Of a stretch of 30,387 nucleotides of DNA, positions 1,379 to 27,539 are shown piece after piece (within the stretch, counting starts at the first letter, position 1; each line of letters starts with the position of its first letter). The stretch is from a virus. The stretch covers positions 1 through 30,387 of IMG/VR virus record IMGVR_UViG_3300042691_024634; one strand, written 5' to 3'. Under the pieces are notes generated by a model. It saw nothing but the letters and a program-made list of their open reading frames with translations, was not told where the DNA came from and searched no databases. The position numbers were made by a program, and so were the translations under genes.

Positions 1379-1385
1379 ATAAATA
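1379..1385 (-). promoter_or_regulatory. TATTTAT element upstream of the 75-aa gene
   Basis: TATTTAT in sense orientation, 16 nt before the ATG at 1362, followed by ATATAAAATTAG. It closely matches the element upstream of the sheath gene. Candidate phage late promoter; see the finding on the whole set. Confidence 0.45.
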
Positions 1386-1395
1386 TGTTCTTATT

Positions 1396-4300
1396 TTAAA
1401 TTGTTGAGAATACTTCGTAGAACGAGGTGAAAATATTTACGTAATCTTGATACCCAGGTAATAAACCTGCATCATATTGACCCAAAACATAATCTTTTAT
1501 TTGTTGAGCACTTAATGCGGGGGGCCCGAACGCAATAGGTGTGTCCCAAGTTGTATAGGCAAATTGAGCAAGAGCTTTACCGTAAGACTTAACATCATTA
1601 GTATCAGGATTCAATGTTTTCAAATTATCAATTATCGGAAGTAATGGTGTAAAGAAAGATACCATAAATTCTGTAGATGTAGTATTTGCAGTAAAACTTG
1701 CCAACGCTCTTGGGGTTCCTTGTATTTCAACACAAACTTGTTCTTTTAAATACGTATCCATACCAGCACTGAATTTATTCTCTGTAGAAATTTCATAAAA
1801 ATTAAGATTAGTCACTTCTATTGATGTTGCTGCGTCGTTATAACTATTCAAAGGTCTAGTATTTATAAGACCCATAAGTAGTGCTCTTAATTTGGCATTA
1901 TTAGTAGCGTTACTGATAATTGGTAATAGTTGTTCTATAGTGTAAATGGATTTACTAACATTTACAAATGGTAAAGTTTGGTATTTTGTAACTTCAAGAC
2001 ATTTATCGGTTGAAGACTGCACCGTATTAACCACCGGGTCTGTTATAATTTGTGTTTCTTTTTCTGTTGGTGTTTTTTGTACTACAATTTTTTCTTTATA
2101 TGCTTGAAGTAATTTTGCATTTGTATTGATAACCAAGTTATCCACATTAGGTAAACTATATTTTGGTATCCTTGTTCCTTTGAAATCAGTAGTGAATGAG
2201 TTTTCACTTATGTTATGAGTCACTTCATAAATCCAATATGGTCCATAAAATAATGGTATATGTCTCAATACAAAATACATTGTTGGTTGAATCATAACAT
2301 TACCCATACCTTTAACACCACAACTATACGACCTTGATTTGTATATACTATACATTGATACAGATTGTTGTGCAACTTTGTCTCCAGCCACTGAACTACC
2401 AATATCAGCAAACACTTTGAAAGACTCTGAAGTATTCTTCATTTCTGACATATCCAATGATACGTCTTTGAATATACTTTGGTTTTGAATGCCAAAATCT
2501 ACGCTAAACCCAACTACTCTATTTGTTTTTGAATAATCTCTATTTGGGTCAGAAACTCTTAAAGGGTTGTCAGCAATTCTTAAATCAAAACTATCGTCAT
2601 CAAATCTAATAAAAGAATTCTCTTTTGGTTTGGGATACTCTGAAGGATTACCCATATATAAACAAAGGAACTTAGGACTTGAATCTGTGTAATCAACTTC
2701 TAAATATGTACCAAACAATGAGTTAGGTATGTCTATATCAATTGGTTTACCATTTTTAAGCGCCTGTTGTATTCCATAGAAATTAATATATGCTGGCATT
2801 GCAAAGAACATAAATTGATTGTCACTTAATATGTTACTTACAACTGTCATCAAGTTCAAATCAGGATTTGTTTTAACATCCAACCTTTTTATAACTTGGT
2901 CAATGTCAACAACAAACGTATCTCCGATATCACTATTTGCTCTATCCATAAATAAGAAATCTTCAAATAGTGTTACATATTTTAAATCAGAACCTGCAAT
3001 CCACTTATCATTAAACGCCTTTAATGTGTTATACAATGTAAGTTTACCAACATCACCTGAAACTGCACTTGCCGTTTCATTTGTTGTAACAGTAATTTCT
3101 TTAAGGTTTTTATTTAAACTGGTAAATGTTTGAGTTAAAATTTTATCTTGTAATGTGTTTTGTTCTGTTAAAAAGTTATCAATTAAAGTTGTAAACTTTT
3201 GTTTGTTCAATGTAGGGTCTTGTAACTTTTTTGTAGCATATAATCTTATTATTGGTGCCAACTGTTCAATATTTTCTGATGTAAATGCGATATTCATATC
3301 AATAAAGAAATCAGCAATATATGACTTATCTGAACCTTGTAATGGTGTAACATTTTGTTGAACATTCAATGGTTGTTGTATTGGGTTTGATATTACAGGT
3401 TCAGTTGAAACTATCGCTTGAAGTTTCAATGGACTATCAAAATTTGTTGGTGCATTTGGATAATAAGTAACAACCATCTGATACAACCCAGTTGTATTAC
3501 CATTTACTTCACAAACAAAAGTATTGTTTGTTGTATTACCTGTTGTTATAACTCCTGTTACTAAATTTGTATTGTCATTTATATCTGAGTTATTTTTATA
3601 AAAAGAAATGTTTCCAACTTTATTAATATTAAAATTAGGGTCTCCATCTATTTTATATACTTGATACCCAACTCCTGGTTTTACAACATTAATGTAGTTG
3701 TAGTTACTTGGGATGTTTAAATCTAATGGTGGAATAATACTTGCCGAATCTCCAACTAACTTCAACTGATATGAGTTTGTTAAATTTGATTGTGGACAAT
3801 TTAAATATGTTTGAAAATAACTTGAACAATATGTTTCAGGTGAAGATGCCTTATTAGAAACAGCACTTGAACCTAAATAATTATATGTCGTTGTTAAACT
3901 ATTATTATTTGCTATTTTTTTAGCACAAAAGAATTTTTTGTTCCCGCTGTTATCTAAAGATTCGATAAATAATATTTTTCCTTTTGATTTGAATGTTGAT
4001 TCAATACCATCATAATTCACACGGTCAATTATATTATAATTGTTAGGATTAGTAATATTGAATTGTTGTCCGGTACACAAATCTTGGAATGTATATTTAT
4101 CTTGTCCACTTACGGGTGGTGAATATGCCGGTAACGTTCCGTCAAATTCATCAAATAAATTAAGGTTTGGAAACTCTGGTTGTATTTCAGTTTGATATTC
4201 AATCCCCGCATCATATGAAAATCCTAAATATAATCTCAGTGTTTTCCAAGCATCTAAATTTTGTGTATAACTTTGTAGTACTGTCACGTTTGTTCCGTCA

Positions 4301-7300
4301 CCAGCAAGAGTTGCTGGTACATAAGGGTCAAATGTTAATTTATCTTTTTCAGGAACAAATGTTTGTAATGAAGAAAAAGAATTAAAAAGTAACCTATCAA
4401 ACTTACCAGGGTTTCCAATTTTTAAAACACAATCAAATTTTAAAAATTCATCAACAGCCTTTGTAAACTCAACAATTTGTTTTTGCCCTAAAGTTTTACC
4501 ATCAGTATCTTCACCAACAAAAGTTAAACCCGTCTTGTTTACCAAAAACAAGTTTTTTAATACTGTATGTAATCTTTTTTGACTTAAATTTTTTACTTTA
4601 TTTGGGTCACTATATGTTGGGTCTATTATTTCATCTTGTAATAGTAAGTCGTTCCCTGTTGGATTTGGGTTACAAAATGCTAAAAACTTTTTTTCAAATT
4701 CGTCCAACATTTTAACATCAAAAATAGAAAAAAGTTTTTCAAAATCCCACCCCCCAGTACTATAACTATCAAACTCTTCGGTTGGTCTTATAACATCCAA
4801 ACCTTCAACATATCCAAAGTTTGGTACCGCCCACAATGCCCTTACTGAACCGTCATAAACAAAAGGGTTGTTATTAAGTTCTATTGTTATAGTGTTATTA
4901 TTATTGACACATTCAAAAATAGCTTCATCAATTGGTATCCCTCCCATAGATGGGTAAACCATAACATACTGTTGATTGTTATCTGTAATTTCTGAATAAG
5001 AATAGTAGTTTACTTTAAGAAGTGACCTGTTTGGGTTTTGTGGGTCAAAACCAAAATTCAAATAATTTGTTGCATTATTATTTTTTCCAATTCTAAAGTT
5101 GTTTTCAGTATAAGCTGTTAAAAAATCATTTTGAGTGTACCCAGTAAATAAATCTTTACCTGTAACAAAGTAATGAACACTATTTATTACATTTGGATAA
5201 AATCCTGTTCCTATTATATCTTTTGTTTGTATTGAAGGTGTAGGAAATTGTTCTGTAACTTGTAAATTAATATTTTGTGAATTTCCACTATAGTCAGGAA
5301 CAACATATGTTTTTGTTATTGCTGAAGTAATTGGGTCATAATTTTTTATATAGTCAAAACTTTTTTGTGTATTTTCTAATATATCTACATTTTCTAAAAC
5401 AAATCTTTTATATCTATGCCAAATTGAACCGTATTTTAATACCCAAGCATATGGTAATTGGTGAATTGCAGAATACTTTTTTAAAGTTTCAGCCAAATTA
5501 GATAAGTTTGTTAAACTACCATCACTTTCAATATTATAAATACCCTCATTTTGTAAACTATTAAAAACAAGTGAATTTAGAAAAATATAACCTAATGCGA
5601 CGTATGGATTTTGAACACCATTTTTTTGTTTTTCAACACCATCCAATAATGAGTTAATAAAATATGGGGTATTTAATAACGATGTTGTTTTATTAGAAAT
5701 GGTGTTACCTGAGTAATTAGGTGTAAAATTTGTGCGTTCTGTAATATAGTTACCATCCTCGTTATCATCTCTATATTCATAATATGATTTCAAAAGATTT
5801 CTTGTTGTTACTGGTACATTATTTTCTTCTGAAATATAAGATTGATTATAATTTTTTAATGGGGAAGGGTCAAATATTGAAATGTTTTTATATTTTTCAG
5901 TTTCATTTATTCTTGCTATTGTTTTTTTGTCATCTAAATATACAAATACTTTTGTTGTGTCGTTTAATTCTAAAATACTAGTTTCTGAATAAACGGATGT
6001 CGGATTAAAAACAAATGGATATGTGTCCAAAAAATTGGTTTTATTTGTTTCAGTGCTCTCCAAATAAGATTTAAGAGTTTTTGCTAAAGGTAAGTCTGAA
6101 CTAATTTGAACTGACCTATTACTTAAAGTATCAATACTATAGATTCCGCTTGAATCGTTTACTTGGTTTTGTAAATAAGGTGTTCTGTAAAGTCTTCTAA
6201 TAAATGTTTCCCAACTTTCACCAGTACCATCGTTTGATATTTTCTTTAAGTAATCAATATATGTGTTAAATGTAAACTTGTAGTTTTTTAATAATTGATT
6301 TAATTCAATACTATCACCAATTGAAAGTTCAACGTTTTTACTTTCAATGTCTCCATATAATTGGTCAACTTTTAGTTTTGATGCTAACGCAACATCAAGT
6401 TTACTATAGTTTGCAGCAATATATGTTCTTTCAAATAATTCATAAAAGAATGGAATTGCAACAAGGTCTTGATATGGTGGTGTTTTGAATGGAAACTCAA
6501 GTGCGTTTGCAGAAACATAACTACTGTAGTCTGCAGGGTTATTATAAACGTTTGCAGTTACAGGTTTTGCAGTCTCTGTTGTTCCTTTCAGATATGCTTC
6601 AACAAATCCAATTTCAGGCCAAATTTTGTAATCAAACGCTCTTGTTTGTTTAATTATTTTTGGGTCACCAGGATATTGAATAACATATAAATCTCTTTGG
6701 TCTGCTTGTTTTTCTTTAACAAAATAAAGAGGCCAAGGATAAATTACATTATCTTGACTTAATTGCCCATTTGTATATTGAATTGCATCTTTACCATCAA
6801 CAGAAAAGTTTTTATCAGGAGGTAACACTGAAGTTAATCTTGTTGGGTCTTGCCTTACATCCCAAGCTCCTTGATGGACATCTTCCATTAATCTATAAAA
6901 TGCATCTGCTCCTGCAAATATAATAGCAAATATATTTCTGATTGTTGGTTTGAACCCAAGACCTCCGCTATCAGGATTTTTAAGTGCTCTATCTGCTAAA
7001 ACTTGTGCTAATATTTTTTCAATTATTTCCTCGTTTGTGTTTAAGGTTTTGTCAATGTTATCAATTTTATCTAAAAAACTATTTGGTTCATACGTACCAT
7101 CAGAAATTCGTCTATCACCAAACACATAAAAAAAACTATTATCTTCAACAATGTTTCCATTTGCATCCAACACCTTTTTGAATAACTCAGCATTTTTTTC
7201 TTCATCCAACTTAAACTTTTCAAATTCTGATATACCATCTGTTGTTGTTATATCAAGTTGTTTTCCTGTTCTATAATAATATGTTTTTATTATGTCACTA

Positions 7301-8613
7301 CTGTTATTTAACCAAGAAGAAAAATCTAAGGTTTTCAATACGTCTTTTAGTTGTATGTCCACATTAATTTCGTACTCACCTCCCGAACCAAATGTGGCAT
7401 TGTTTTTTAATTGTTGTGTAAAAAATTCAATCCTTTCTTGAACTTTGGTTTCGTAGTCTTTTTGTGTTTGTTCACTTATGTCTTTTTTGTATGGATAATA
7501 AATAAGGTTACCAACAACATAATAACTTGAGTTATCTAAGAAGTTATTGATTGAGTTTGTATAAACACTTTCTCTTAATTTTGAAAGGTTGTATCTATAA
7601 TCCGCAATATCGTTTAACTTAGAAAAATCACCTTTGTTTTTAGCATCTTCTTCAGCCTTTTTTGCATAATTACTTGACCTTGCAATAAATTCTTCAATTG
7701 ATATAGGAGGAAAGTTTGCGTCTAACAAACCTTTTCTTTTATAGATATCATAAACCTCTTCTAACTTTTGTCTTCCTTTATATGTGTTTTTTGTGGTAAC
7801 AGTATTGTTTGCAACATCCTTAGTTGTAATTTCAGTATTGTACATTTTGGGAGCGGTAATAGAATACTGAAGAGGAGTATCAAAAAGAAGTGCAGTAAAT
7901 TTACCAACAAGTTTCAAACTAATTTGAAAGTTACCTTTTGCAGAATCAAATCTTGAATTAAACGACAACAAAGACAAACGATATCTAATCGCCTTTCCGT
8001 AATAACCTTTTAAGGTCAAATAGAATAGAGGATATGGAAAATTAAAAAATGCAGAATATATAGAGTTTTCTCCTTGTTCAAAAAGAGCTCTTCCTTGTAT
8101 ATCTGTCATTTCAATATTTACTTCAGGCACTCCCGTTCCTTTAATGTTTACTGAAATACTATTTATACCCAACATTTGAGTATCTTCATATTTTGTTACA
8201 GAGTTTTTAAATCTTGGTTTCCCATCGTTTTGAACAATTTGTTCTGATTTTTGATTTAACCCTTGTCCCAATCTTGATTCAAGACCTGTTATTTGGTCAG
8301 ACCAACTTGTATCAAATTGTTTTTTTCCCTTTGGTTGTAAGAAATTTAATTTTAAATCATCTTGACCATTGAACAATGTTGCAATAGTTGTGTTTACAAC
8401 TGGTGAATCAAAACTTTCACCAATTGCAAGTTTTGTTCTTGGAATAATAAACGTTTCAAGATTTGCATAATATACCAAGTCTTCTTGGTCTACAAATCTT
8501 GGCGTAGGTTTATTTTCAACGTCATATATCTCATTTGGATTTACAACGATTATATTGTCGTAGTCTGTTTCAACAAATATTTTTTTAGTTTGAGCAATTC
8601 TTTTATCTGCCAT
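1396..8613 (-). CDS. Giant baseplate hub-like structural protein (2405 aa)
   Basis: One of two giant tail genes. Residues about 150-256 (INSISVNIKG to TAPKMY), with FPYPLFYLTLKGYYGKA in the middle, resemble the tube-forming part of phage baseplate hub proteins. Near the C-terminus, about 2094-2140, the sequence GNVMIQPTMYFVLRHI then GPYWIYEVTHN and TTDFKGTR resembles the later beta-domain of gp27/VgrG-type hubs. The roughly 1800 residues between are Asn/Tyr/Thr-rich and unassigned. I see no catalytic motif. Its start overlaps the end of the 105-aa LysM gene by 11 nt, suggesting translational coupling. T4 gp27 is only about 390 residues, so this would be a greatly enlarged hub or a fusion of hub and periphery. 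Virion role likely; exact T4 counterpart uncertain. Confidence 0.7.
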   Translation of the reverse strand: MADKRIAQTKKIFVETDYDNIIVVNPNEIYDVENKPTPRFVDQEDLVYYANLETFIIPRTKLAIGESFDSPVVNTTIATLFNGQDDLKLNFLQPKGKKQFDTSWSDQITGLESRLGQGLNQKSEQIVQNDGKPRFKNSVTKYEDTQMLGINSISVNIKGTGVPEVNIEMTDIQGRALFEQGENSIYSAFFNFPYPLFYLTLKGYYGKAIRYRLSLLSFNSRFDSAKGNFQISLKLVGKFTALLFDTPLQYSITAPKMYNTEITTKDVANNTVTTKNTYKGRQKLEEVYDIYKRKGLLDANFPPISIEEFIARSSNYAKKAEEDAKNKGDFSKLNDIADYRYNLSKLRESVYTNSINNFLDNSSYYVVGNLIYYPYKKDISEQTQKDYETKVQERIEFFTQQLKNNATFGSGGEYEINVDIQLKDVLKTLDFSSWLNNSSDIIKTYYYRTGKQLDITTTDGISEFEKFKLDEEKNAELFKKVLDANGNIVEDNSFFYVFGDRRISDGTYEPNSFLDKIDNIDKTLNTNEEIIEKILAQVLADRALKNPDSGGLGFKPTIRNIFAIIFAGADAFYRLMEDVHQGAWDVRQDPTRLTSVLPPDKNFSVDGKDAIQYTNGQLSQDNVIYPWPLYFVKEKQADQRDLYVIQYPGDPKIIKQTRAFDYKIWPEIGFVEAYLKGTTETAKPVTANVYNNPADYSSYVSANALEFPFKTPPYQDLVAIPFFYELFERTYIAANYSKLDVALASKLKVDQLYGDIESKNVELSIGDSIELNQLLKNYKFTFNTYIDYLKKISNDGTGESWETFIRRLYRTPYLQNQVNDSSGIYSIDTLSNRSVQISSDLPLAKTLKSYLESTETNKTNFLDTYPFVFNPTSVYSETSILELNDTTKVFVYLDDKKTIARINETEKYKNISIFDPSPLKNYNQSYISEENNVPVTTRNLLKSYYEYRDDNEDGNYITERTNFTPNYSGNTISNKTTSLLNTPYFINSLLDGVEKQKNGVQNPYVALGYIFLNSLVFNSLQNEGIYNIESDGSLTNLSNLAETLKKYSAIHQLPYAWVLKYGSIWHRYKRFVLENVDILENTQKSFDYIKNYDPITSAITKTYVVPDYSGNSQNINLQVTEQFPTPSIQTKDIIGTGFYPNVINSVHYFVTGKDLFTGYTQNDFLTAYTENNFRIGKNNNATNYLNFGFDPQNPNRSLLKVNYYSYSEITDNNQQYVMVYPSMGGIPIDEAIFECVNNNNTITIELNNNPFVYDGSVRALWAVPNFGYVEGLDVIRPTEEFDSYSTGGWDFEKLFSIFDVKMLDEFEKKFLAFCNPNPTGNDLLLQDEIIDPTYSDPNKVKNLSQKRLHTVLKNLFLVNKTGLTFVGEDTDGKTLGQKQIVEFTKAVDEFLKFDCVLKIGNPGKFDRLLFNSFSSLQTFVPEKDKLTFDPYVPATLAGDGTNVTVLQSYTQNLDAWKTLRLYLGFSYDAGIEYQTEIQPEFPNLNLFDEFDGTLPAYSPPVSGQDKYTFQDLCTGQQFNITNPNNYNIIDRVNYDGIESTFKSKGKILFIESLDNSGNKKFFCAKKIANNNSLTTTYNYLGSSAVSNKASSPETYCSSYFQTYLNCPQSNLTNSYQLKLVGDSASIIPPLDLNIPSNYNYINVVKPGVGYQVYKIDGDPNFNINKVGNISFYKNNSDINDNTNLVTGVITTGNTTNNTFVCEVNGNTTGLYQMVVTYYPNAPTNFDSPLKLQAIVSTEPVISNPIQQPLNVQQNVTPLQGSDKSYIADFFIDMNIAFTSENIEQLAPIIRLYATKKLQDPTLNKQKFTTLIDNFLTEQNTLQDKILTQTFTSLNKNLKEITVTTNETASAVSGDVGKLTLYNTLKAFNDKWIAGSDLKYVTLFEDFLFMDRANSDIGDTFVVDIDQVIKRLDVKTNPDLNLMTVVSNILSDNQFMFFAMPAYINFYGIQQALKNGKPIDIDIPNSLFGTYLEVDYTDSSPKFLCLYMGNPSEYPKPKENSFIRFDDDSFDLRIADNPLRVSDPNRDYSKTNRVVGFSVDFGIQNQSIFKDVSLDMSEMKNTSESFKVFADIGSSVAGDKVAQQSVSMYSIYKSRSYSCGVKGMGNVMIQPTMYFVLRHIPLFYGPYWIYEVTHNISENSFTTDFKGTRIPKYSLPNVDNLVINTNAKLLQAYKEKIVVQKTPTEKETQIITDPVVNTVQSSTDKCLEVTKYQTLPFVNVSKSIYTIEQLLPIISNATNNAKLRALLMGLINTRPLNSYNDAATSIEVTNLNFYEISTENKFSAGMDTYLKEQVCVEIQGTPRALASFTANTTSTEFMVSFFTPLLPIIDNLKTLNPDTNDVKSYGKALAQFAYTTWDTPIAFGPPALSAQQIKDYVLGQYDAGLLPGYQDYVNIFTSFYEVFSTI

Positions 8614-8922: not shown

Positions 8923-11900
8923 TTATTTAAATGATTTTTTTAAGTTATACCTATCTCCACTTGAATTTTGGTCAGACCATAACTCTTCAAGATTTTTTCC
9001 ATTCAAACCTATAATTGGAACTTGCCCTTCATAAGACATTATTCTTGTTACGGTTCTATTGTATGGGTTGTATGTATTAAATGTATTTGTAAAATAATTA
9101 TCTTTGAACTTCTTAAATCTTTCATCAACAATACCTTTTGACCTTGTATAATTTATAACCAAAGCCTCGTTTCCTGTATTTAATTTATCGTTAAAGAATT
9201 GTTTCCATTGTGTTTTAACTTCTTCACTTGCTGTAGGTATTGCATCGTCAACAATTTTATCTGTGAACGTAGTTCCGTTAGTTATTATTTCTTTTCCAAA
9301 CAACATAAAGAATCTATTTTCAGAGGCATCAATGTTATTTGGGTCAACATCTATGAAGGAATCAAAAGCAAATTGGTCATTGTAAGTGTAAGTAGAACCT
9401 GTAGGAATTATTTGTTCAACTTCTAAGTTGTTTATATATCTATTTAATTCTGTTTTAATTTTTAAGAAATCAATTTTTAACTCATCAAATGCGTTCGCAG
9501 CTCCGGTGTTAGGGTCAATACCCGCAGTACTTCCTGTAAGGTCAAAGACTAATGGATTACCTTTTTGGTTAATATAACCATCAACTTTACTTGTAACATA
9601 ATTCAGTTTATCAATAGTAAATACCAAACTTAATTCATCCGAGACAATCGCACTATTACAACCTTCCAACAATGCCAACATTTTTACACCTTCTTCATCA
9701 ATTAGTTTTTGAATTTGTTTTTTTACTTTTCTAATATCTTGATTTGTGAAGTTATAATTAACAGCAACATCAATCAAAGGACATAAATCATCATCAACGT
9801 CTTTTTTAGCCTTTCTAGTCAAGTCTTCAATTTTGTTTTGTATTTTTTCTGTTTTACCAAAAATATATCCTACATTACTTGTATTACCTGTTAACCAATC
9901 AAAATACCCTTCTGTATATTTTCTTTCGTCAGTAAAAATTAATAATCCACCTAACAAGTAACTTTCATTAACTTTCTCTAAATTATTTAAAACTGTTGTT
10001 GCGTAACTTTTAGTTTGGTCAGCCAACTTGTTCATTACGTCTTTATATTGTATTGTACCAAATGATTTGCCAGTATCTAAATTAAAACTACTATAAGTGA
10101 TAGTACCAATAGTATCTCCTTTAGAATCTGTTCTTTGTTTGTTTGGGTCATCAACTATTCCGATTTCATCTTTAATTGATTGTAATAGTGCTGCATCATA
10201 TTGTGTGGTTACATCTTCTGTAACATCGGCTCTATCATCATACATTTCAGTATTTGCGTAATAATTAAATGATAATGCATTTTGTAATTTTGCAACAGGG
10301 GCGGCTAATCCGTGTCCTCCAATAAATTTAAATTGCATTTGTATACTAGCAATCATCGGTTGTACCCCAATACCTTCAGGATTTAAATCATATGGTATGT
10401 CTTCATATGAAAAACCAATACTATCAATCACAATTTTAGTATGGAAAAAGTCTCCAAATCTTAAAACACAAACAGGAGGAGCACCAAATACACTATTAGT
10501 CACATCGTTGTATATTAAAGTTACTCTACCATTATTATCTTTATTTACTGTAGGTATTGTATCTCCAGGTCTCATACATTGTTGTAAGAATGTAAGTCTC
10601 GCATTCAAACCTTCAGGTGTTATTGAGTGGAAGGCAGGATGGAAGTACTTCAACTTACTTCTTAAACTATCATAAATCATTGGGTCTTTTTGTTTGACCA
10701 ATTCAAAATAGTTACACTCGGTTAATAATTTTCTTGCAAGTCTTTTTGTTAAATCACTTCTTTGTTTCAAAGTTTCTTTTACCACAGGGTCTTGTTTAAT
10801 TCTAACTTCTTTTGGTGGTGTTACCACTTTTTTAATCACAGTTGTAGTAAACGGGGTTGGTACTGGTGGATTTGTAACAGTCACATCTTCGGGTGGAACA
10901 TATTCTGTAAACACTTCAGGTGGTGTAAAATCAGTATTAACCTCTTCTTCTGTAATTACTGGTTGAGTTTGAACTTGTTGTTCTAATACAGGATAAACGT
11001 CTTTAATTCTTACCCTTCTACAAGCCATTGCGTTTACTGATACGTTACCTTCGTCAGAATCTTTTTGGAATGGTTCTCTACAATTAATTGCCTTATATTT
11101 AGGGTCTGCTAGTGTGACTTCTTCTCCTTCAATTTCATCTTTTATAACAATTTTTCCTTCCTCAATTGCTTGTTTTAAACTAACTCCGTCATAATTAAAA
11201 GCATCAATATATTGTCTTATTGAATTCATCCTTCTTTTGGCTAAACCTTCATTATAAACAGGACTTTGTATTGAAGAGGCCGCACCCGCTATTGTAAAAC
11301 TACATTTACCTCCTATTTTTATAAATGAAGCTAACTTTTGGAAAAATGTTTGTATTTCTAAAAAACTTTTGTCTATATAATCAAAAAACTCATTGACAGC
11401 GGTTATTCTTGTGTCCACATATTTTGCAAGGTATGTTTTTTGAGCAAAAGATGTTGATGCCAAAACTTCTGCGGTTTTCCCTTGTCTCAGCGGGTCACCA
11501 TACTCAAAAATGTAGTCCAATGCACCTCTGAAAGTGTGTTTACCTAAATCAACTTTTGACGCAGGATATTTTGTTAAATATGCGGTTTTTAAATCTCTAT
11601 ATTTTTCTAACCACCAAAAATAATCAAAATTTGTTTGGAAATAACCAGGTGTTCCTTGAAAATCTTTTGCTAATGGATAGTCATTATGAAAGAAGAAAAT
11701 TAATTCTCCTAATACAGGTGTTTCTAAAACTGCAGGTGGTTCTGTAATTGTAGGTGTCGCAGATACTGGTGGTGGTGATGTCGGAGGAACTGTAACAGGT
11801 GGTGCGGTTGGTGGTGGTGTTGCTGTTGGTAAATCCACGTCATAGGTAATAACTTCAACTTCTTCAGTTGTTGTTTCTTCGGTAAAATAAACAATATCTT

Positions 11901-14900
11901 CTGGATAATATATTTCTTGTTGAATTTCAAATACATCTCTTGGTGTAAACATTGGAAACTTCTTAACCAAATCATACAAATCGTATTTTGTACATCCAGC
12001 GAAGAAGGATGTTAATACTTTATTTACAACAGAGTTTGAACTTTCATTTTCTAATTCCTTGTCAACAATCACATTCAATATAGATGGGTGGTCAACAACA
12101 ATTTTCCAATTTAAAGAACCCGTTCTATTAGTACCCCCATATGTATATATTGGTTCAGGTCTTCCAATAAAAGTGTTATCCATCCATTGTGTAGATACGG
12201 ATTCTCCATAAGTCACGTCATAAGGTGGAAACCACATTATTCTACCTCCGTTTGGTCCTTTTTCACAAGCAGGTAAATCCTCATAAGTATAACCAGGTCT
12301 GTTTGATGTTCTCCACGCTAAATTTTCTAACGAGAACATATATTTTTTTACTTTGTCGTTAACAATATTAGTTGACTCTTTTCCTTTCCAAGGAGCAATA
12401 TTTAAGTTGAACGTGTTATCAAGAACTGAATAGGTATATTTTCTGATATTACCATCTGTTTTTTGAAGTTCATCATAATCCATATAAGGTCTGTCTTTTG
12501 TAAAAACTCTACAATATTCATAACCTGTAGGTGTATTTGAACTTTCCGGTACTGAATTTTTGGTGGTGTATCTGATTACTCTTGAACCTTTTGTTAATTC
12601 AATGTACCCATCATTAAAAACTTTAGACACTTGGTTGATAGCGTTACCTACGTGCTCTAACTTATTGTTTGAACGATTACCAGCATCTACTAATTTTTGT
12701 GTTACATCTAAAATTGAACCATTAGTAAACTCATATAACGTTGACTGAGTTGGTTCATATTGAGAACTTATTTGTGAAAAATTAAATATTGAATTATCAG
12801 AAAACACCGAACCTCCAACACCTGCATAATTTCCAGGTATCATCCAATTTTCTCCACCTTTACCTGCCCTTGAAATCCAAGTAAACCCTCCTTGTACACC
12901 ATTCAAACTATCAATATATGACCTTGAATTTAATCCCGTATAAGGACGATTCATTTGTTCTCCTTCATATTCTTGACCAATCTTTCCATAAGAAAATACC
13001 GGACTTTTTGAAGCAACACCCTTTATTTTACTTTCAGGAAGTTCTCCATCAGGTGATACTATTTCAGTAATTTCAGATTTACGTTTTCCAATATAATAAT
13101 TTCCTTGTGGCGCTAAAAGATTATTTCCTATTTTATAATCAGGTCTGAAAACATTATATCTTAATTGGTCATATAATAAACCTCTTGTCGCAATTGATGT
13201 ATATTCAACAAACAACTCAGAAGCCGATTGATTTTTTGGTTGTAATAATCTAAACACTCCACCAATAGCACCACCAATTATTGATAATGGGTTTGTAAAA
13301 ATTGCTGACCCTTTTTTATCAGGATAATCAAAATACTCACCAGGTATAAATGAATATGGCGAATATGTTCCTGCTAAACGCGCTGCAAAATTAATTGCTT
13401 GACCTAAAAATAAATCAGGGTTTGTAATTGTATAATCTTTTGCATACAATGGAATTTGTCCCGACAACAATCCAATCGCGTCAAATGGGTCGGTATTCGG
13501 TTTACTTGATATTTCTCCGGTATCGGGGTCAATACTTGAATCCAAAGCATTTACTCTTGCTAATGTCTGTTGGAATAACTCTAAAGCTACTCTAAATTTG
13601 AACTCTTTATTTAATTGCATTGCACCAATTTGTGCTAATGCTGAATCCTGTGACAACGAACCATCTGAACCACTTGGATTGTCACTAAGTAAAATACTAA
13701 ACGGTGTATATGTTGATGGTAAGAATATAAAAGTGGAATCACTATTGGCATACGGTAAACCCGTTGCTGGTATTTCTAAATCATCAATGGTTACAAGTTC
13801 AGGGTTACCATAACTTCCTGTTCCTGAAACATATTTATTAATTACATATGCTTGGTTCTCTTTAAGTTCTCCAACTAATTCTAATTGACTATTAATCGTA
13901 TCTGTAAAATCATATTCACCTTCGTTTGTTCCTAAAGCAATAAATTGATTAATTTCAACAGTATTACCATAAGAACCACTTACTTGGGTTGAAGGAAGTT
14001 TTGGTCCGTACTTGTTTATAACATATAAGAAGTTTTCTCTTACTTGTCCTATAATTTCAAGTTGACTATTTATTGTATCTGAAAAATCATAAATTCCTTC
14101 GTTTGACCCAAGTACTTGAACATTGTTCATATCATATCTTGTGTCACCATACCCAGCAGTAGTGCCAGGGGTATACTTGTTTAATACAATTAAATCTTGT
14201 TCTTTTTCATTACCTATTAAATACAAGTAACTATTAACAGTATCCGTTATTGTATATTCACCACTACCATTTGTAAGAATTACTTCATTATCATTAATTG
14301 ACCACTTAGTTATACCATAATCTAAAGAGGTTGCTGGTTTATATACGTTCTTTGTTTTCAAGAAAATTTCTCTTGAATTTCCTATTGTTGTAAGATTACT
14401 TATATACGCATCTTGAATATTATACAACCCACTACCTGTTGTATTAATAACTTCATCATCATTTATATACCAAACAGTATTACCATAATCTTGTGGTGAG
14501 GTTGGTTTATATGTGTTTTTTGTTTTATGGAAGATTTCTTGTTGGTTTCCGATTTGATATAAGTAACTATCAAGGGTATCCTCTATCGTATAGATTCCAG
14601 CACCCATACTTAAAATTGTTTGGTCATCATTTATGTACCAAACAGTATTACCATAATCTTCAGGTTGTTCAGGTTTATATAAATTTCTTACTTTATGAAA
14701 AACTTCTTGAGTGTTACCAATTTGAAATAAATAACTATTAAGTGTGTCCGCTATGGTGTATTCTCCTTCACCTACAGTTCTTATTACTTCGTCGTCATTA
14801 ATGTACCATACAGTATCTCCGTATTGGTCTTGTCCCACCGGTTTATAAACATTTCGTACAATGTGAACCGTTTCTTGGTTGTCCCCAATTCTTTCTAATT

Positions 14901-15405: not shown

Positions 15406-15412
15406 ATAAATA
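15406..15412 (-). promoter_or_regulatory. TATTTAT element upstream of the 2155-aa gene
   Basis: TATTTAT in sense orientation, 15 nt before the ATG at 15390, within the 41-nt gap after the tape measure gene. Candidate late promoter, one of ten in the window. Confidence 0.45.
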
Positions 15413-17262: not shown

Positions 17263-17269
17263 ATAAATA
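17263..17269 (-). promoter_or_regulatory. TATTTAT element upstream of the tape measure gene
   Basis: TATTTAT in sense orientation, 10 nt before the ATG at 17252 and followed by AAAATAAAAT. Candidate late promoter. Confidence 0.45.
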
Positions 17270-18160: not shown

Positions 18161-18200
18161 AATATTTTATTTTAAAAATAATCGTGAAAACTCTTATGTA

Positions 18201-18254: not shown

Positions 18255-18743
18255 TTAATAAACTAATATACATCTGTCAGGTTGCATAGTTGCTTTTACT
18301 GTGATAAGACCATCTTCGCTGTATCCAAGTGAATCAAAGTCAACACCACCTAATAAACATCCTTGTAGTATCCATTTTTCAACAGCCACACCTGTTGGGT
18401 CTAACATTTCTAAGTCAACATCTTTTTTGTATCCTGCAGCATAACCCTGACGACCTGTAACTGATTCAGAGTGTAGACGAACCCATTCCATAAGTGCTTG
18501 TGCTGCCGATGGACCAATCGGGTCTCTAAATGTGACATCCATTGAACCCCATTTAAATTTTCCAGCAACAAAGGTTGATGTATTTAAGAATGGAATTTCA
18601 ACTGGTGTACTTTCATATTTTGGTCTACTTGTACTTTCTACATACCAAGAGTTGATTCCAAGTTCACTTGGGAATGTAAGTATAAACCTGTTCTTTCTTT
18701 TTGGTTCATACTGAAAGGGCATTTTCATTAACAAATCAGCCAT
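18255..18743 (-). CDS. Tail tube protein, gp19-like (162 aa)
   Basis: The length of 162 residues matches T4 gp19 (163). The sequence opens with PFQYEPKRKNRFILTFPSEL and continues with WYVESTSRPKYESTPVEI, WGSMDVTFRDPIGPSAAQAL and KWILQGCLLGGVDFDSLGYS, the usual beta-sandwich pattern of T4-type tube proteins: a FxlxFP strand near the start, PxYE, a D-P-I turn and a C-terminal F-D-x-x-x-Y segment. Hexamers stack into the inner tube of the tail. A TATTTAT element lies 33 nt before the ATG and a strong terminator follows, so this gene can be a separate transcription unit, suiting a protein needed in many copies. Confidence 0.9.
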   Translation of the reverse strand: MADLLMKMPFQYEPKRKNRFILTFPSELGINSWYVESTSRPKYESTPVEIPFLNTSTFVAGKFKWGSMDVTFRDPIGPSAAQALMEWVRLHSESVTGRQGYAAGYKKDVDLEMLDPTGVAVEKWILQGCLLGGVDFDSLGYSEDGLITVKATMQPDRCILVY

Positions 18744-18776: not shown

Positions 18777-18783
18777 ATAAATA
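18777..18783 (-). promoter_or_regulatory. TATTTAT element upstream of the tail tube gene
   Basis: TATTTAT in sense orientation exactly 33 nt before the ATG, the same spacing as for the sheath gene. Candidate late promoter. The rest of the 114-nt gap (18744-18857) is A/T-rich with nothing else recognised. Confidence 0.5.
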
Positions 18784-18857: not shown

Positions 18858-19715
18858 TTATACTTCTATTTTTTCTCCTCCTTTAGTTAAATACATTTTT
18901 ACTGGTTTTTCTTCATATTCAGTTTCAATAAATTTTTTCATATGTTCTATGTTCTTTGGGTCATCGTCTGAAAAACCGATAAATGGTACAACCTCATCGT
19001 TTTTGATGTCATTTTTAAACATCCCTTTTTTTCCAATTTCTTGTGAAAGTTCTTTACAATAAGATATAAATCTTCTCATTGCTTTTATTTTTCCTTCTTC
19101 AGGATTTGTCGCACTTCCTTCCCCAAATGTAACTGGTTCAAACATACACATATCTAAATACTCCATAATAATGTCCTTGTCATTTACATTTAAGTCAAAG
19201 GATTCGTCAATTGGATTATCTGCCCAATTTCTGTATTTTTTTAAGTTACTTACACATTCACTACTTCTTATCCCATTATGATTTGAGATAATATAATTAT
19301 AGGTTGCTTCTTTTAATGTTTCAGGATTGTGACCTCTAGCTGTAATAATTGCAAATATTGAACCTCCATTAATACATTCAATAAAGTCATTCCAAGAAGG
19401 ACCGGGACTTGCAATCATAGAATCAATAATAAATTTCTTATCACCTTTTGTCCCAAAATTTCTAAACGGGTCAGATGCAAAATTTACAATAGTAGTTCCT
19501 TTATAAGGGAAGTTTTCCTTACCAATCATATGTCTATACTCAGCAAAATCTTCAGTAGACATACCTACTTCTTCATCATTTTCTGTAAGAAGGATTATTG
19601 TTGTTGGCATAAAAACAATATTATCATCCCAATCAAAGGCATAATATTTACTATCAGGTGTACCTTCAGGGGTAACACCTTCTATAATCCTTCTCAAATG
19701 TTCCCTAATATTCAT
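18858..19715 (-). CDS. HAD-superfamily phosphatase-like protein (285 aa)
   Basis: HAD motifs are in order: motif I YAFDWDDNIV (about residues 25-34; nucleophile Asp and Asp+2 present, Asn instead of Thr later in the motif), motif II AIITARGH, a lysine in EEGKIKAMRRF, and motif IV IGFSDDDPKNIEHM with the acidic metal ligands. This is consistent with an active Mg-dependent phosphohydrolase; the substrate cannot be told. The start ATG overlaps the stop of the 46-aa ORF (ATGA), indicating coupled translation. The position between sheath and tube genes is unusual for an enzyme. The first 13 residues (NIREHLRRIIEG) form a basic helix ending in I-I-E-G, which resembles a T4 prohead protease site, so packaging into the head is a speculative option. 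Confidence 0.75.
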   Translation of the reverse strand: MNIREHLRRIIEGVTPEGTPDSKYYAFDWDDNIVFMPTTIILLTENDEEVGMSTEDFAEYRHMIGKENFPYKGTTIVNFASDPFRNFGTKGDKKFIIDSMIASPGPSWNDFIECINGGSIFAIITARGHNPETLKEATYNYIISNHNGIRSSECVSNLKKYRNWADNPIDESFDLNVNDKDIIMEYLDMCMFEPVTFGEGSATNPEEGKIKAMRRFISYCKELSQEIGKKGMFKNDIKNDEVVPFIGFSDDDPKNIEHMKKFIETEYEEKPVKMYLTKGGEKIEV

Positions 19716-19852
19716 TTACTATTAAGTTTTTCTAATATTTTTTCTAACTGACTTTCAGTTATTACAATATTTTGTTTTTTCTTTGAGAAAGTCTTAGGAC
19801 TTGATTTGAAGTCACCAATTGATTCTTTAATTAATTTTTTTTGAATTTTCAT
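19712..19852 (-). CDS. Small basic protein coupled to the HAD gene (46 aa)
   Basis: An ATG at 19852 opens a 46-codon frame ending with a TGA that overlaps the HAD start codon (ATGA), strong support for a real translated ORF. The product is lysine-rich (MKIQKKLIKES...) and ends with a helix NIVITESQLEKILEKLNSK. Function unknown. Short ORFs of this kind often serve as translation initiators for the next gene or as small capsid or DNA-associated proteins. A TATTTAT element lies 13 nt upstream of the ATG, right behind the hairpin that ends the sheath gene, so this ORF and the HAD gene probably share one promoter. Confidence 0.65.
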   Translation of the reverse strand: MKIQKKLIKESIGDFKSSPKTFSKKKQNIVITESQLEKILEKLNSK

Positions 19853-19865: not shown

Positions 19866-19872
19866 ATAAATA
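19866..19872 (-). promoter_or_regulatory. TATTTAT element upstream of the 46-aa/HAD pair
   Basis: TATTTAT in sense orientation, 13 nt before the ATG at 19852, followed by AATAAAAAATATT. It starts 6 nt beyond the sheath-gene hairpin, giving a terminator-then-promoter arrangement. Confidence 0.45.
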
Positions 19873-19904: not shown

Positions 19905-22900
19905 TTAAATATTATCAAATGATGCTCCCGTTGGTGTTATAACAAACTCAATGTCAATGTATTCAAGAGCCCTTGTAGGTTTCAAAAATATCTTACCTGT
20001 CAAAGTGTTTGAGTCTAAATCTTCAGGAGTGTTTGATACTTGAACTCTAAAGTCAATTAAACCTCTATCTCTTCTGATTGAATCTAATATTGGGTTAACT
20101 GAATCCAAGAAGTCTTGTCTTACTTTTTGGTCATTTTGTTCAAACAATAATCTTACAGCCACTGCAGATATTAGTTTTCTTGCTTGTAGTAACAACCTTC
20201 TAACGTTGATTCTGTCAAGAGCAGACTCTCTAATTTGCATTGTCTTATTACCCCATATAACAGTACCGACATCGTTGAAGGTTGCAATTGGGTTGATTCT
20301 TCCTGAGTACAATGTATCTCTATCTTCTTGTGTAAGTTTCTTACGTGCTTTAATTGAGTTAACCAAACCTCTCGTGTAACCCGCAGATGCGAACCAAGGG
20401 AAGGCAATGTTATCTGTTAATGCCAAGTTTTTAACTACCTCTGAAGTTGCAGGAATATAAATTTGAGTGTTATTAACAGTATCTCTTGTTAAAATCCAAG
20501 GATAGTAAGTTGCAGTATAATTTGAATCAATTGAGGTGTTTTCCAAATTGTCTACAGCCTGTTGTGGGAATATTAAACCATCTTCAATATTACTAAAAGT
20601 AGGTAAGAATAAATTAAAATCAGGTGTAGTACAAATGTAAATTGAATCGGCTCTGTCCGTTTCAATCATATCAATCGCATCTTCAACTAAGTTGTTGTTA
20701 TTTACATAATCAATACCAGGTGTTGCAAATACATTTATGTTAACCGCTTCAGGATTTGCAAAAGTATCTTGACCCCATTTGTATGCGTAGTAATCAGTAT
20801 TTGCCCAATTCTCTTGATTTGGCCCTGCAATTGCCTTGAACGCTCCCCATCCTGTTGCGGTTGGGTATGTTATACTTGGAGCAGCTCCGTATTTAAACCC
20901 ACTTTGTCCTAATGCAAAACTATCGTCATTTGTTCTGGATTCTCTGTAAATGTCCCAACCATCAAATCCACCATACGCTAAAATTGTAAATTTACGAGCC
21001 AATAATTTGTAATATGGACTTGATGTGCTTGTAGGTTCAGCATCAAAGGACGCTACCCCAACCTCAAACGCTTGTGTGTATGCTGAAGTTAAAACGTCAT
21101 ATTGAGTTACAACCGTAGCACCACTATCCATATGGAAACCTTTAGTTATGTAACCCCAAGGAATACCTTCAGTATCTGTTGCTAAGTTTGCTGGTATTTG
21201 TTTTCCTTTATATTCAAAGAAGTCATAATCAATACCTGCTATGTTAGAAATACCTAAGTATGCTTTACGAGGATTTTCACCACTTGATATTACAGGGTTA
21301 TCTCCACCAGTGGAAGAACCAAAAGGAGGGTTGTAAATTACGTCACCTGGTTGTAAGTATTTTGTTTTATATACAACAAATGGAGGTGTCGCGTTTGCAT
21401 ATTCTCTTGATATGTAACCTTCAAATCCACAAGGAAGAGCGTCAATTGGTGCTTCGTCGCTCATTTCTAACATTACATACTTAGATTTCAACTGATATTC
21501 ACCATTAGATGTTCCTATTTTATTAGCGACATAATTGTTTTGATTTGGGTCAAGTCCACAATTTGTAAAACTTTCAATGACAATTGGATTTTGGTCGTTA
21601 TCATAGAAATCTCTAATAAATACGTCAAAGGTTTGTTTGTTAAATGATATATTACCAATAGACATTTTTACAAGTCTATTAGCTGCATTACCATCTGAAA
21701 TCAAAACAAATTTGAAAAGTTTGTAAACTTTATTACCTCTTAATTCCGATACTAAGTATGGTGTTTCAGGTGTTTTATATCTTTCTAAATAAAACGCGAT
21801 TGAATCATTATAATTAAAATCCAAAGTGTCGGTTACACCAGGTAGCGAAATTAAATCACAACTAAGTCCTCTGATTTGACCTGCTCTGTATCCATTTAAT
21901 AATAAACTTGAATATGTTTCTTCTACAAATAAAGGAACTTCAAATCTTGATTTACCAAAGTTACTTCTACCAAATACCTTTGATATGAAGTTTTTATCAG
22001 TAGAATTCATTGAAGTGGTGAATTGGAATGTGTTACCTTCATAACTAATACCTGATATAACAAAAGGTAAGAAAGGATTTTCACTCACACCTGAGTATGT
22101 ACCTGTACAAATCATTTGTACATCAGATGTTCCTGTAACTTGGAATTGAGGACCAGGTTGTGTTGCACTATAATTAGTGATACCTCTAGACCTTAATGTT
22201 GCAACCACTAAGTCATCATAAGTCACATATGGTGAACCTGAGTAGTTTGTTGCATAAAATTGAACTGAACCACTAAATCCTCCTGTAATACCTGTCAAAG
22301 TCGCAACAGTAGCACCATAACCTTGACCGAAGTAAGTGTTTGGTGGTCCTTGGTAGTAGTCAAAAAGTGCGTAATACCAAGCGTCGTTAGTAGTTGCTGA
22401 CAAATTCGCTAAAGATAAATTAACATTGTTAACACCGAATGTTTCACTGAATCCAGTAACTGTTGCAGAACCATTAAGTGAAACACCTGTAACGGCACTT
22501 AACGTACCACCACTAACCGTCCCCCAAAATACTGAAGTAGAACCTGAGTTTACACTTGAACCTGAGAAAAGCCTAACTTGTTCTGACAAGTACATTTGTA
22601 AGTCATTATCTACTGAAGATGTTGTACCGTCATTCGCAGTATAATTGTTATAAAAATTGTTGTTGTTGTTAATTGCCGCAGGAATTGATGCCGTATAAGT
22701 AATAGAGTATCCAGTACTTGCGGTAAATGTCACAATAGCGGATGTCACTCCTGTCGCAACAATCGTAGACGGGTCAACGTTACCTACAGTCGTAATAGAC
22801 CAAGATGGGCCAGCATCATATCCCGACAATCCTAATATTCTTGTTACAAACAATTGATTAGACTGTTGTAGATATGCCTTTGCAATGTACCCTAATTCAT

Positions 22901-23123
22901 ACTTAGGAATTTGAGTATTAACAAATTTTTCGGGACTTGTTCCCCCAAAATATACTTGAAACTCGTCAAAATTAGTAATAAAGATTGGTTCAAATGCTGG
23001 ACCACGAAGGGTCTCACCAGCCAAACCTAAAGTTGTTACACCTACACTTTGTGCAACAAAAGTTAAATCTCTTTCTGAAGTGTAAACCCCAGGTGAAACG
23101 AAAACCTTGTTAGATGATGCCAT
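19905..23123 (-). CDS. Tail sheath protein, gp18-like, enlarged (1072 aa)
   Basis: The N-terminus reads VFVSPGVYTSERDLTFVAQS then TLGLAGETLRGPAFEPIFI, F-x-x-YFGG and a YIAKAYLQQSNQLFVTRIL segment, characteristic of contractile tail sheath proteins. The C-terminus has VIWGNKTMQ, then INVRRLLLQARKLI, FLDSVNPILDSI and a final beta strand after TGKIFLKP, the conserved sheath handshake domain (about residues 950-1072). T4 gp18 has 659 residues; here an extra Ser/Thr/Gly/Asn-rich beta segment, about residues 105-380, lies between the conserved start and the VFGRSNFGKSRF region. It forms the contractile outer tube. A TATTTAT element is 33 nt upstream of the start and a hairpin follows the stop. Confidence 0.92.
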   Translation of the reverse strand: MASSNKVFVSPGVYTSERDLTFVAQSVGVTTLGLAGETLRGPAFEPIFITNFDEFQVYFGGTSPEKFVNTQIPKYELGYIAKAYLQQSNQLFVTRILGLSGYDAGPSWSITTVGNVDPSTIVATGVTSAIVTFTASTGYSITYTASIPAAINNNNNFYNNYTANDGTTSSVDNDLQMYLSEQVRLFSGSSVNSGSTSVFWGTVSGGTLSAVTGVSLNGSATVTGFSETFGVNNVNLSLANLSATTNDAWYYALFDYYQGPPNTYFGQGYGATVATLTGITGGFSGSVQFYATNYSGSPYVTYDDLVVATLRSRGITNYSATQPGPQFQVTGTSDVQMICTGTYSGVSENPFLPFVISGISYEGNTFQFTTSMNSTDKNFISKVFGRSNFGKSRFEVPLFVEETYSSLLLNGYRAGQIRGLSCDLISLPGVTDTLDFNYNDSIAFYLERYKTPETPYLVSELRGNKVYKLFKFVLISDGNAANRLVKMSIGNISFNKQTFDVFIRDFYDNDQNPIVIESFTNCGLDPNQNNYVANKIGTSNGEYQLKSKYVMLEMSDEAPIDALPCGFEGYISREYANATPPFVVYKTKYLQPGDVIYNPPFGSSTGGDNPVISSGENPRKAYLGISNIAGIDYDFFEYKGKQIPANLATDTEGIPWGYITKGFHMDSGATVVTQYDVLTSAYTQAFEVGVASFDAEPTSTSSPYYKLLARKFTILAYGGFDGWDIYRESRTNDDSFALGQSGFKYGAAPSITYPTATGWGAFKAIAGPNQENWANTDYYAYKWGQDTFANPEAVNINVFATPGIDYVNNNNLVEDAIDMIETDRADSIYICTTPDFNLFLPTFSNIEDGLIFPQQAVDNLENTSIDSNYTATYYPWILTRDTVNNTQIYIPATSEVVKNLALTDNIAFPWFASAGYTRGLVNSIKARKKLTQEDRDTLYSGRINPIATFNDVGTVIWGNKTMQIRESALDRINVRRLLLQARKLISAVAVRLLFEQNDQKVRQDFLDSVNPILDSIRRDRGLIDFRVQVSNTPEDLDSNTLTGKIFLKPTRALEYIDIEFVITPTGASFDNI

Positions 23124-23156: not shown

Positions 23157-23163
23157 ATAAATA
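23157..23163 (-). promoter_or_regulatory. TATTTAT element upstream of the sheath gene
   Basis: TATTTAT in sense orientation exactly 33 nt before the ATG at 23123, followed by ATATAAAATAAAAC. The same extended string precedes the 75-aa gene. Candidate late promoter. Confidence 0.5.
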
Positions 23164-23211: not shown

Positions 23212-23241
23212 GGTGAGAAAAAATTCTACCTTTTTTCTCCC
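23212..23241. other. Perfect 9-bp inverted repeat between sheath promoter and 49-aa ORF
   Basis: GAGAAAAAA (23215-23223) pairs perfectly with TTTTTTCTC (23231-23239) around a 7-nt loop, and a bulged T allows two more G-C pairs outside. On the minus strand it lies in the spacer upstream of the sheath promoter; on the plus strand it ends 18 nt before the 49-aa ORF. It could be a protein-binding operator or an RNA hairpin. No T run follows in the minus direction, so it is not a standard leftward terminator. Confidence 0.4.
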
Positions 23242-23258
23242 TATAATTTTTATATTCT

Positions 23259-24449: not shown

Positions 24450-24450
24450 A

Positions 24451-24966: not shown

Positions 24967-24970
24967 ACTA

Positions 24971-24977
24971 ATAAATA
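24971..24977 (-). promoter_or_regulatory. TATTTAT element upstream of the 171-aa gene
   Basis: TATTTAT followed by TAGT and the ATG. The same order and 4-nt spacing (TATTTAT-TAAT-ATG) occurs at the SOD gene on the other strand. A -10-like element this close would give a leaderless mRNA; alternatively it acts in translation. Confidence 0.4.
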
Positions 24978-25011
24978 CTTTGATTGATTTTTTATTAATA
25001 TTTACTATTTT

Positions 25012-25018
25012 TATTTAT
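25012..25018 (+). promoter_or_regulatory. TATTTAT element upstream of the helicase gene
   Basis: TATTTAT in sense orientation, 6 nt before the ATG at 25025, in the short divergent region 24967-25024 that also carries the opposite-facing element of the 171-aa gene. Confidence 0.4.
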
Positions 25019-25024
25019 AACATA

Positions 25025-26791: not shown

Positions 26792-26798
26792 TATTTAT
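26792..26798 (+). promoter_or_regulatory. TATTTAT element upstream of the superoxide dismutase gene
   Basis: TATTTAT then TAAT then ATG (26803). It begins directly after the helicase stop codon and has the same 4-nt spacing as the element of the 171-aa gene. Confidence 0.4.
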
Positions 26799-26802
26799 TA
26801 AT

Positions 26803-27516
26803 ATGTTGTTCAAAAATTTATATAAAAAAATTAATCTAATAGAATCACGACTTGATAGTCCGTCACTTTTGAAAGAAAATATAATTTCAGAAATAAAGCA
26901 AGTTAGTGTTGAAAAGTTACCTTATGAATTTGATTCCTTAGAAACATTCATTGATAGTGAAACAATGAAGACTCATTACAATAAACACTACAAAGGTTAT
27001 GTTGAAAAGTTGAATGTTGAGTTAGAAAAAATTAAAGGTAAAGATTTAGATTTAGAAGAGATTATTAGAAAGATTTCAAAATTTAATACTAAGGTGAAAA
27101 ACAATGGTGGGGGAGCGTTCAATCACGCATTGTTTTGGAAAATGCTTTCACCAAAAAAACAAACAATAGAAGACCCTATTAAAAGTAAAATTGAAAAAAC
27201 TTTTGGTTCGTTTGAAAAATTTAAAGAAGAATTTGAGCAAGCATCAAAAGATAGGTTTGGTTCAGGTTGGGTTTGGTTAATACTCACAGACACTAAAAGG
27301 TTAAAAATTGTTACAACCGCAAATCAAGATAATCCTTTAATGAATACAGAAAAAGAAAAAGGTTATCCATTATTGGGATTGGATGTTTGGGAACACGCAT
27401 ACTATTTAAAGTATAAAAATCAAAGAGATAAATACGTTTCAAATTTTTGGAAAGTGGTAAATTGGGGATTTGTTAATGACCAATATACTACGCAGTTAGA
27501 CAGAATGTCATCATAA
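26803..27516 (+). CDS. Mn-type superoxide dismutase with N-terminal extension (237 aa)
   Basis: Converts superoxide to oxygen and hydrogen peroxide. All four metal ligands of the Fe/Mn family are present: His58 (THYNKHYKGYV), His108 (GGGAFNHALFW), Asp194 and His198 (LGLDVWEHAYYLKY). The gateway Tyr66 and the GSGWVWL and VVNW segments are kept. Gln175 in ANQDNPLM, with Gly rather than Gln before FNH, points to manganese. An N-terminal stretch of about 35-40 residues precedes the usual start of the family (LPYEFDSLE); it has a basic segment followed by L-I-E-S, not a signal peptide. Start: ATG 26803 is preferred to the overlapping GTG at 26788. It is followed after 26 nt by the gp13-like gene. 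An intact bacterial-type SOD is unexpected in a phage structural region. Confidence 0.92.
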   Translation: MLFKNLYKKINLIESRLDSPSLLKENIISEIKQVSVEKLPYEFDSLETFIDSETMKTHYNKHYKGYVEKLNVELEKIKGKDLDLEEIIRKISKFNTKVKNNGGGAFNHALFWKMLSPKKQTIEDPIKSKIEKTFGSFEKFKEEFEQASKDRFGSGWVWLILTDTKRLKIVTTANQDNPLMNTEKEKGYPLLGLDVWEHAYYLKYKNQRDKYVSNFWKVVNWGFVNDQYTTQLDRMSS

Positions 27517-27517
27517 A

Positions 27518-27539
27518 GATATTTATATAAAAAAATATC
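27518..27539 (+). promoter_or_regulatory. TATTTAT element within a small hairpin before the gp13-like gene
   Basis: TATTTAT (27520-27526) lies 16 nt before the ATG at 27543. It is inside a 7-bp inverted repeat (GATATTT with AAATATC, 8-nt loop), which spans the 26-nt gap after the SOD stop. Candidate promoter; the hairpin could be incidental in such AT-rich DNA. Confidence 0.4.

Follow-up and report, generated by a model that had tools for sequence, protein, structure and literature searches.

Late transcription in phage T4, which requires gp55, gp33 and the gp45 sliding clamp, has long been a textbook case, and most of the known examples come from phages that infect Proteobacteria or cyanobacteria. 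The late promoters of T4 have the short box TATAAATA and lack a conserved upstream sequence (PMC2988020; PMC7892883), and gp55 flips A-12, A-9 and A-8 of the promoter (PMC7892883). In the T4-like phage Aeh1, a diverged gp55 accompanies the altered late box CTAAATA (PMC1524935). The description of the moraphages lists a sigma factor among the shared genes and gives no promoter motif (PMC12619734). In this study, we analyzed the heptamer TATTTAT upstream of genes in a virus fragment of 30,387 bases with a G+C content of 32% (IMG/VR record IMGVR_UViG_3300042691_024634, hereafter the window). We consider it probable, from comparative sequence analysis, that TATTTAT forms the -10-like core of a late-operon promoter peculiar to a group of large T4-like phages, and that a diverged gp55-like sigma factor reads it.

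The window carries T4-type virion genes (sheath, tube, hub, gp53-like wedge and neck) together with genes for a UvsW-type helicase, a DNA polymerase, a single-stranded DNA-binding protein and a superoxide dismutase (SOD). It was compared with 80 relatives of the sheath locus and with two large relatives, G001 (292 kb) and G002 (229 kb); the group looks like the moraphage lineage (PMC12619734), a candidate home for these phages. Gene starts were taken from a simple ORF (open reading frame) caller. Elements were counted up to 40 nt upstream of a start in the window and up to 50 nt in the genome-wide counts in relatives, the background was obtained from dinucleotide shuffles (5000 for the window), and conservation per gene was counted over distinct relatives, meaning distinct upstream regions.

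Position, strand and conservation of TATTTAT

Sense TATTTAT lies upstream of 10 of the 18 gene starts in the window and antisense TATTTAT upstream of none; the shuffles averaged 0.86 and never exceeded 5. The whole window holds 26 copies against 20.7 ± 4.8 expected, which is no excess, so that the signal consists of position and strand, and counts made without position mislead. In the large relatives, the sense element is found at 99 of 342 genes in G001 (107 copies, shuffled 18.2 ± 4.3) and at 66 of 225 genes in G002 (72 copies, shuffled 9.7 ± 3.4), with antisense copies near background (30 versus 25.0 and 26 versus 16.2, respectively). The first-pass annotation of this DNA, which had suggested that the element is a candidate late promoter in a T4-like phage, named equal sense and antisense frequencies as grounds for abandoning the proposal; measured against the shuffles, the frequencies are clearly unequal, and the tests run support a late promoter as the interpretation.

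The enrichment extends to two further phages. The eight-base form TATTTATA precedes 24 genes of the cultured Flavobacterium phage immuto (NC_055915) against 2.8 in shuffles, and 13 genes of Microcystis phage Mel-JY01 (PP395634) against 2.6. In immuto, TATTTAT lies ahead of the genes for terminase, portal, sheath, tube, hub and tape measure. As positive controls, the same pipeline recovered 21 sense versus 5 antisense copies of TATAAATA in T4 and 26 versus 2 copies of ATAAATA in S-PM2. Sense TATAAATA shows no comparable enrichment in G001, G002, immuto or Mel-JY01, so the T4 consensus at -13 to -6 does not describe these putative promoters.

All ten copies listed by the first-pass annotation were found where it had placed them, 4-33 nt from the start and in the coding direction, and so were the particular arrangements that it had pointed out. 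On the minus strand, the copies ahead of the tail sheath gene (gp18-like, 19905-23123, -; phrog_23, E=3.5e-53) and the tail tube gene (gp19-like, 18255-18743, -; phrog_4542, E=2.9e-24), at 23157-23163 and 18777-18783, share an identical spacing of 33 nt; the element is present in 37/37 distinct relatives at the sheath gene (spacing 30-39) and in 25/25 at the tube gene (30-36). The copy at 15406-15412 (-) lies 15 nt upstream of the 2155-aa gene, which heads an operon with the gp53-like and 2405-aa genes, and it recurs in 24/24 distinct relatives at 13-17 nt. The 2405-aa (1396-8613, -) and 2155-aa (8923-15390, -) genes are very large, flank the gp53-like wedge gene within this single operon and gave no informative PHROG match. 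Upstream of the 606-aa tape-measure candidate (17263-17269, -, spacing 10) the element is seen in 5/6 distinct relatives and, at 19 nt, in immuto; upstream of the 46-aa gene (19866-19872, -, spacing 13), which overlaps the HAD-like gene, it is seen in 20/30. The 75-aa gene (TATTTATATATAAAAT) has its copy at 1379-1385 (-), 16 nt upstream, and its homologues retain the element at 15 nt in G001, at 13 nt in G002 and, as a 74-aa gene, at 20 nt in immuto. On the plus strand, the gp13-like neck or head-tail adaptor gene (27543-28664, +; phrog_211, E=8.7e-11) is preceded at 16 nt by the copy at 27520-27526, conserved in 24/24 distinct relatives at 12-17 nt with a single copy at 26.

Three further copies stand close to the start codon and belong to a predicted leaderless class. 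Two of them are opposed, one per direction, in a divergent gap: 24971-24977 (-), 4 nt upstream of the 171-aa gene (32/32 distinct relatives, spacing 4-6 except for a single copy at 0), and 25012-25018 (+), 6 nt upstream of the helicase ATG at 25025 (17/25, mostly 6). The third, at 26792-26798 (+), is 4 nt upstream of the SOD ATG at 26803 (7/7, mostly 4). The 171-aa and SOD genes share the arrangement TATTTAT-TArT-ATG, with TAGT in the former and TAAT in the latter. The SOD itself (26803-27516, +) is a phage-encoded Fe/Mn enzyme (PF02777, E=1.4e-41) with a late-type, apparently leaderless promoter.

A near-miss absent from the first-pass list is the variant TATTTTT at 18174-18180 (-), 13 nt upstream of the hub ATG and 3' of the terminator-like sequence GGGGTTTTTT; the exact element is found at this gene in just 2/31 relatives, and the immuto hub gene has an exact copy at 31 nt. 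TATTTAT is present in 0/40 relatives at the 346-aa gene, 0/31 at the HAD-like gene and 0/22 at the 110-aa gene, all three of which closely follow another gene. Conservation per gene is thus nearly all-or-none, with the tape measure, 46-aa and helicase genes intermediate.

The element is accompanied by a T-rich patch. The patch was measured in 183 promoters that lack a recognizable terminator upstream, drawn from G001, G002 and immuto. With the first T of the element as reference, positions -16 to -14 are 50%-56% T; G+C at these positions is 10% in promoters versus 38% in coding copies of TATTTAT, and TTT occurs there in 38% versus 4% of coding controls. No such patch was found when it was looked for upstream of T4 late promoters. 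These data bear on the possibility that the copies arose by chance in AT-rich gaps or as by-products of terminators. The gaps are indeed very AT-rich and the whole-window count shows no excess, but the strand bias, the comparison with dinucleotide shuffles and the near all-or-none conservation all speak against such an origin, as does the upstream pattern that stays in the 183 terminator-free copies, and we regard it as extremely improbable.

Operon starts, spacing and late genes

TATTTAT is distributed according to gene arrangement. In G001 and G002, it precedes 2%-8% of genes with an upstream gap of less than 15 nt, 50%-65% of those with a gap of 15-59 nt and 39%-57% of those in divergent gaps. 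Since it is frequent after gaps and nearly absent inside operons, TATTTAT marks operon starts. Virion genes scored by their operon head carry it in 8/11 cases, compared with 2/19 (G001, P=0.001) and 4/19 (G002, P=0.009) of other genes, most of which serve DNA metabolism. Non-virion genes that have the element include those for the DnaB-type helicase, the UvsW-like helicase and SOD as well as many small genes. UvsW and resolvase, the counterparts of several of these exceptions, are late in T4.

Among the small genes of G001 and G002, many encode short N-terminal tags (e.g., MKIIITESQY, MKKIIRLTESD, MLFKNLYKKINLIESRL and MNIREHLRRIIEG) that are shared by otherwise unrelated proteins, including SOD and the HAD-like protein. 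In the window, the tags occur at 26803-27516 (+), 18858-19715 (-), 19712-19852 (-) and 420-1121 (-). They look like the capsid-targeting leaders of T4 internal proteins, and a simple pattern search places them more often on genes with TATTTAT (18/166) than on genes without it (6/402).

The distance from the element to the ATG is trimodal. In 583 distinct upstream regions with TATTTAT, spacings cluster at 4-6 nt (158 regions, about 27% of elements), 12-18 nt (209) and 28-37 nt (~97), and spacings of 1-3 nt are rare. The base preceding the ATG is T in 98% of spacing-4 genes, and in leadered genes an A-rich run begins at about the same distance downstream of the element. As the simplest reading, these patterns imply a start site approximately 5-7 nt past the element and a leaderless 4-6 nt class. 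Transcription would begin on an A at this distance; where the ATG lies 4-6 nt past the element, the start site would coincide with the start codon and yield a leaderless mRNA, while the remaining genes would have a short A-rich leader without a Shine-Dalgarno sequence.

The many copies 4-6 nt ahead of an ATG, in phages that lack Shine-Dalgarno sequences, could instead be taken for a signal of translation initiation or mRNA stability, an alternative that the first-pass annotation had also raised. No Shine-Dalgarno signal was detected in G001, G002 or immuto, where the median spacing of TATTTAT is 12-18 nt. However, genes inside operons need translation equally and rarely carry the element, the spacing ranges in three modes over 4-37 nt, and a second T-rich element 15 nt farther upstream would make no sense for a ribosome. 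In Mel-JY01, 55% of TATTTAT genes have a Shine-Dalgarno sequence in a leader between the element and the ATG, at a median spacing of 34 nt; an element that far out, above the Shine-Dalgarno leader, is a promoter rather than a translation signal. A role in translation is largely refuted by the operon position and the Mel-JY01 leader, was rejected, and has in our view very little likelihood left.

A gp55-like sigma factor as the candidate reader

If TATTTAT is a late promoter, a phage sigma factor may read it, and the gp55-like sigma gene that the first-pass annotation had recommended looking for is present in relatives. A protein of ~250 aa is encoded by six large relatives, G001 and G002 among them; its match to sigma region 2 is weak, as it is for T4 gp55 itself. 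The gp55 hidden Markov model matched the G002 protein with E=0.001 and the G001 protein with E=0.0026; in the reverse search with a profile of the relatives' proteins, the gp55 proteins of T4 and S-PM2 were the best outside matches (T4 gp55, E=0.013), and a profile comparison with gp55 aligned region 2 (E=1.7e-4). An AlphaFold2 model of the protein (mean predicted local distance difference test score, pLDDT, 73) was most similar in structure to T4 gp55 as seen in the promoter complex (7d7c_F; Z 10.0, 102 residues, 3.0 Å). A search against PDB sequences gave no match, and Foldseek alone gave no significant match. The related sigma region-2 domain that marks the gp55 family is present. Homologues were found in immuto (gp118, YP_010114565.1, annotated as hypothetical) and in Mel-JY01.

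The contacts of gp55 with DNA can be compared with the altered box. TATTTATA retains A-12 and A-8, with -10 and -9 changed. In the profile alignment, gp55 Y97 of the -12 pocket aligns with an invariant Tyr in the relatives, and H95 of the -9 pocket with a conserved Tyr, not His. RNA polymerase carrying the gp55-like sigma would recognize TATTTAT as single-stranded DNA at approximately -13 to -7, and the T-rich patch ~15 nt upstream would assist recognition.

The protein has an extra C-terminal domain (residues 155-248) that is modeled with confidence (pLDDT 85). The highest-scoring structure for it, sigma-H (3mzy, residues 133-202, Z 5.9), is tied with unrelated folds; the T patch could be read by this domain in the manner of a sigma region 4. 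A tentative idea, which we put forward as one possibility, is that the roles of gp55 and gp33 are perhaps combined in one protein, with the N-terminal region 2 reading TATTTAT and the C-terminal domain the T patch, and that leaderless late mRNAs are routine in hosts whose translation does without Shine-Dalgarno sequences. With regard to clamp binding, no T4-like hydrophobic-acidic C-terminus is evident in the alignments, where the rows of cyanophage gp55 have no obvious one either.

Several findings weigh against recognition of a late promoter by this protein. The sigma gene lies outside the 30-kb window and its presence is deduced from relatives; the co-occurrence of sigma and motif amounts to few independent lineages; and LR756508 encodes a homologue of the gp55-like sigma yet has no TATTTAT excess. 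Region 2 of sigmaE matches the model nearly as well (Z 9.6), and with this tie gp55 cannot be picked out from the fold by itself. At T99 of gp55, the residue that touches A-8 in T4, the relatives have Gly, even though the box retains A-8. Pfam models of the gp45 sliding clamp gave no convincing match in G001, G002, immuto or Mel-JY01. The DnaB-type helicase gene, with TATTTAT at a spacing of 27-28 nt, is a true exception, and late-only use is not strict. Finally, the portal and major capsid genes of G001 and G002 are without an exact TATTTAT, and the hub gene has only the variant.

Another sigma factor must also be considered. Both G001 and G002 encode a full sigma70-type protein, P0001, with regions 1.2, 2 and 4 (271 aa in G002, L105:15721-16536, +). 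Among cellular proteins, the nearest to it are Bacteroidota sigma factors, at ~43% identity. Where TATTTAT is missing, genes show an excess of TATCTTTG (17 versus 0.2) and of TTTG-N17-22-TAnnTTTG (19 versus 0.9), the latter of which we take to be the Bacteroidota sigmaA promoter. The presence of sigmaA-type promoters indicates a Bacteroidota host, and the hosts of this phage group are probably Bacteroidota. TATTTAT has no TTTG ending, and TAnnTTTG is a separate enriched motif, mostly at other genes. At several early-type genes of G001, G002 and relatives (e.g., L114, L117, L126 and L140), TTTG...TAnnTTTG promoters lie exactly 4 nt ahead of the ATG, the placement expected for a -10/-7 element in a leaderless gene, which suggests that early mRNAs are leaderless too. 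Other words are enriched upstream of genes in immuto (TTAGGTAT, 14 versus 0.1; TTCGTATA, 9 versus 0.0) and Mel-JY01 (TAACAGGA and AACCTAAC, 7 each versus 0.1-0.2), possibly as early or middle promoters.

That P0001 or an alternative sigma factor of the host, and not the gp55-like protein, reads TATTTAT gains some plausibility from the Bacteroidota affinity of P0001 and from the T patch, which resembles a two-part promoter. Against it, immuto and Mel-JY01 have both TATTTAT promoters and the gp55-like protein, while nothing resembling P0001 was found in either (best six-frame E 0.086), and P0001 resembles the sigma factors that read TTTG...TAnnTTTG, a motif also present in these genomes. The negative controls phi38:1 and FCL-2, which are Bacteroidota phages but belong to other lineages, have no excess of TATTTAT (0 and 1). 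P0001 was rejected as first choice because of its absence from immuto and Mel-JY01, and we judge this explanation unlikely.

Comparison with described systems

A search of literature available without subscription found no prior description of TATTTAT late promoters, of immuto promoters or of leaderless mRNAs in Bacteroidota phages. The gp55-like system would represent a second, rewired T4-type late system in an abundant aquatic lineage with probable Bacteroidota hosts. The published structure of T4 gp55 on DNA provides a means of testing the matched change of promoter and sigma, TATTTAT offers a ready rule for operon annotation in hundreds of uncultured contigs, and leaderless translation in Bacteroidota becomes directly testable with the cultured phage immuto.

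The Bacteroidota sigmaA promoter is alike in being two-part and AT-rich, and it is used by the same phages at other genes, also 4 nt ahead of an ATG; it differs in core, in spacing and in its TTTG ending, and the TATTTAT gene set is largely different. Aeh1 shares with these phages an altered late box together with a diverged gp55, although its changes are at -13/-12 and those described here at -10/-9.

The closest likeness is to the late promoters of T4 and S-PM2, which also have a short AT-rich -10-like box in sense orientation ahead of virion operons and a phage sigma with a region-2 fold. The first-pass annotation had compared TATTTAT with the reverse complement of the T4 box, a likeness that is not the relevant one; when both are read in one direction, TATAAATA and TATTTATA are identical at 6/8 positions and differ only at -10 and -9, where TT replaces AA, with the -12 and -8 contacts kept. 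Unlike T4, whose late promoters are characterized by the lack of a conserved -35 or upstream sequence, these putative promoters have a conserved T patch ~15 nt upstream; the gp55-like protein is ~248 aa long with its extra C-terminal domain, many genes are apparently leaderless, most members lack Shine-Dalgarno leaders, and a clamp was not found by sequence. Taken together, the TATTTAT system is likely a variant of T4 late transcription.
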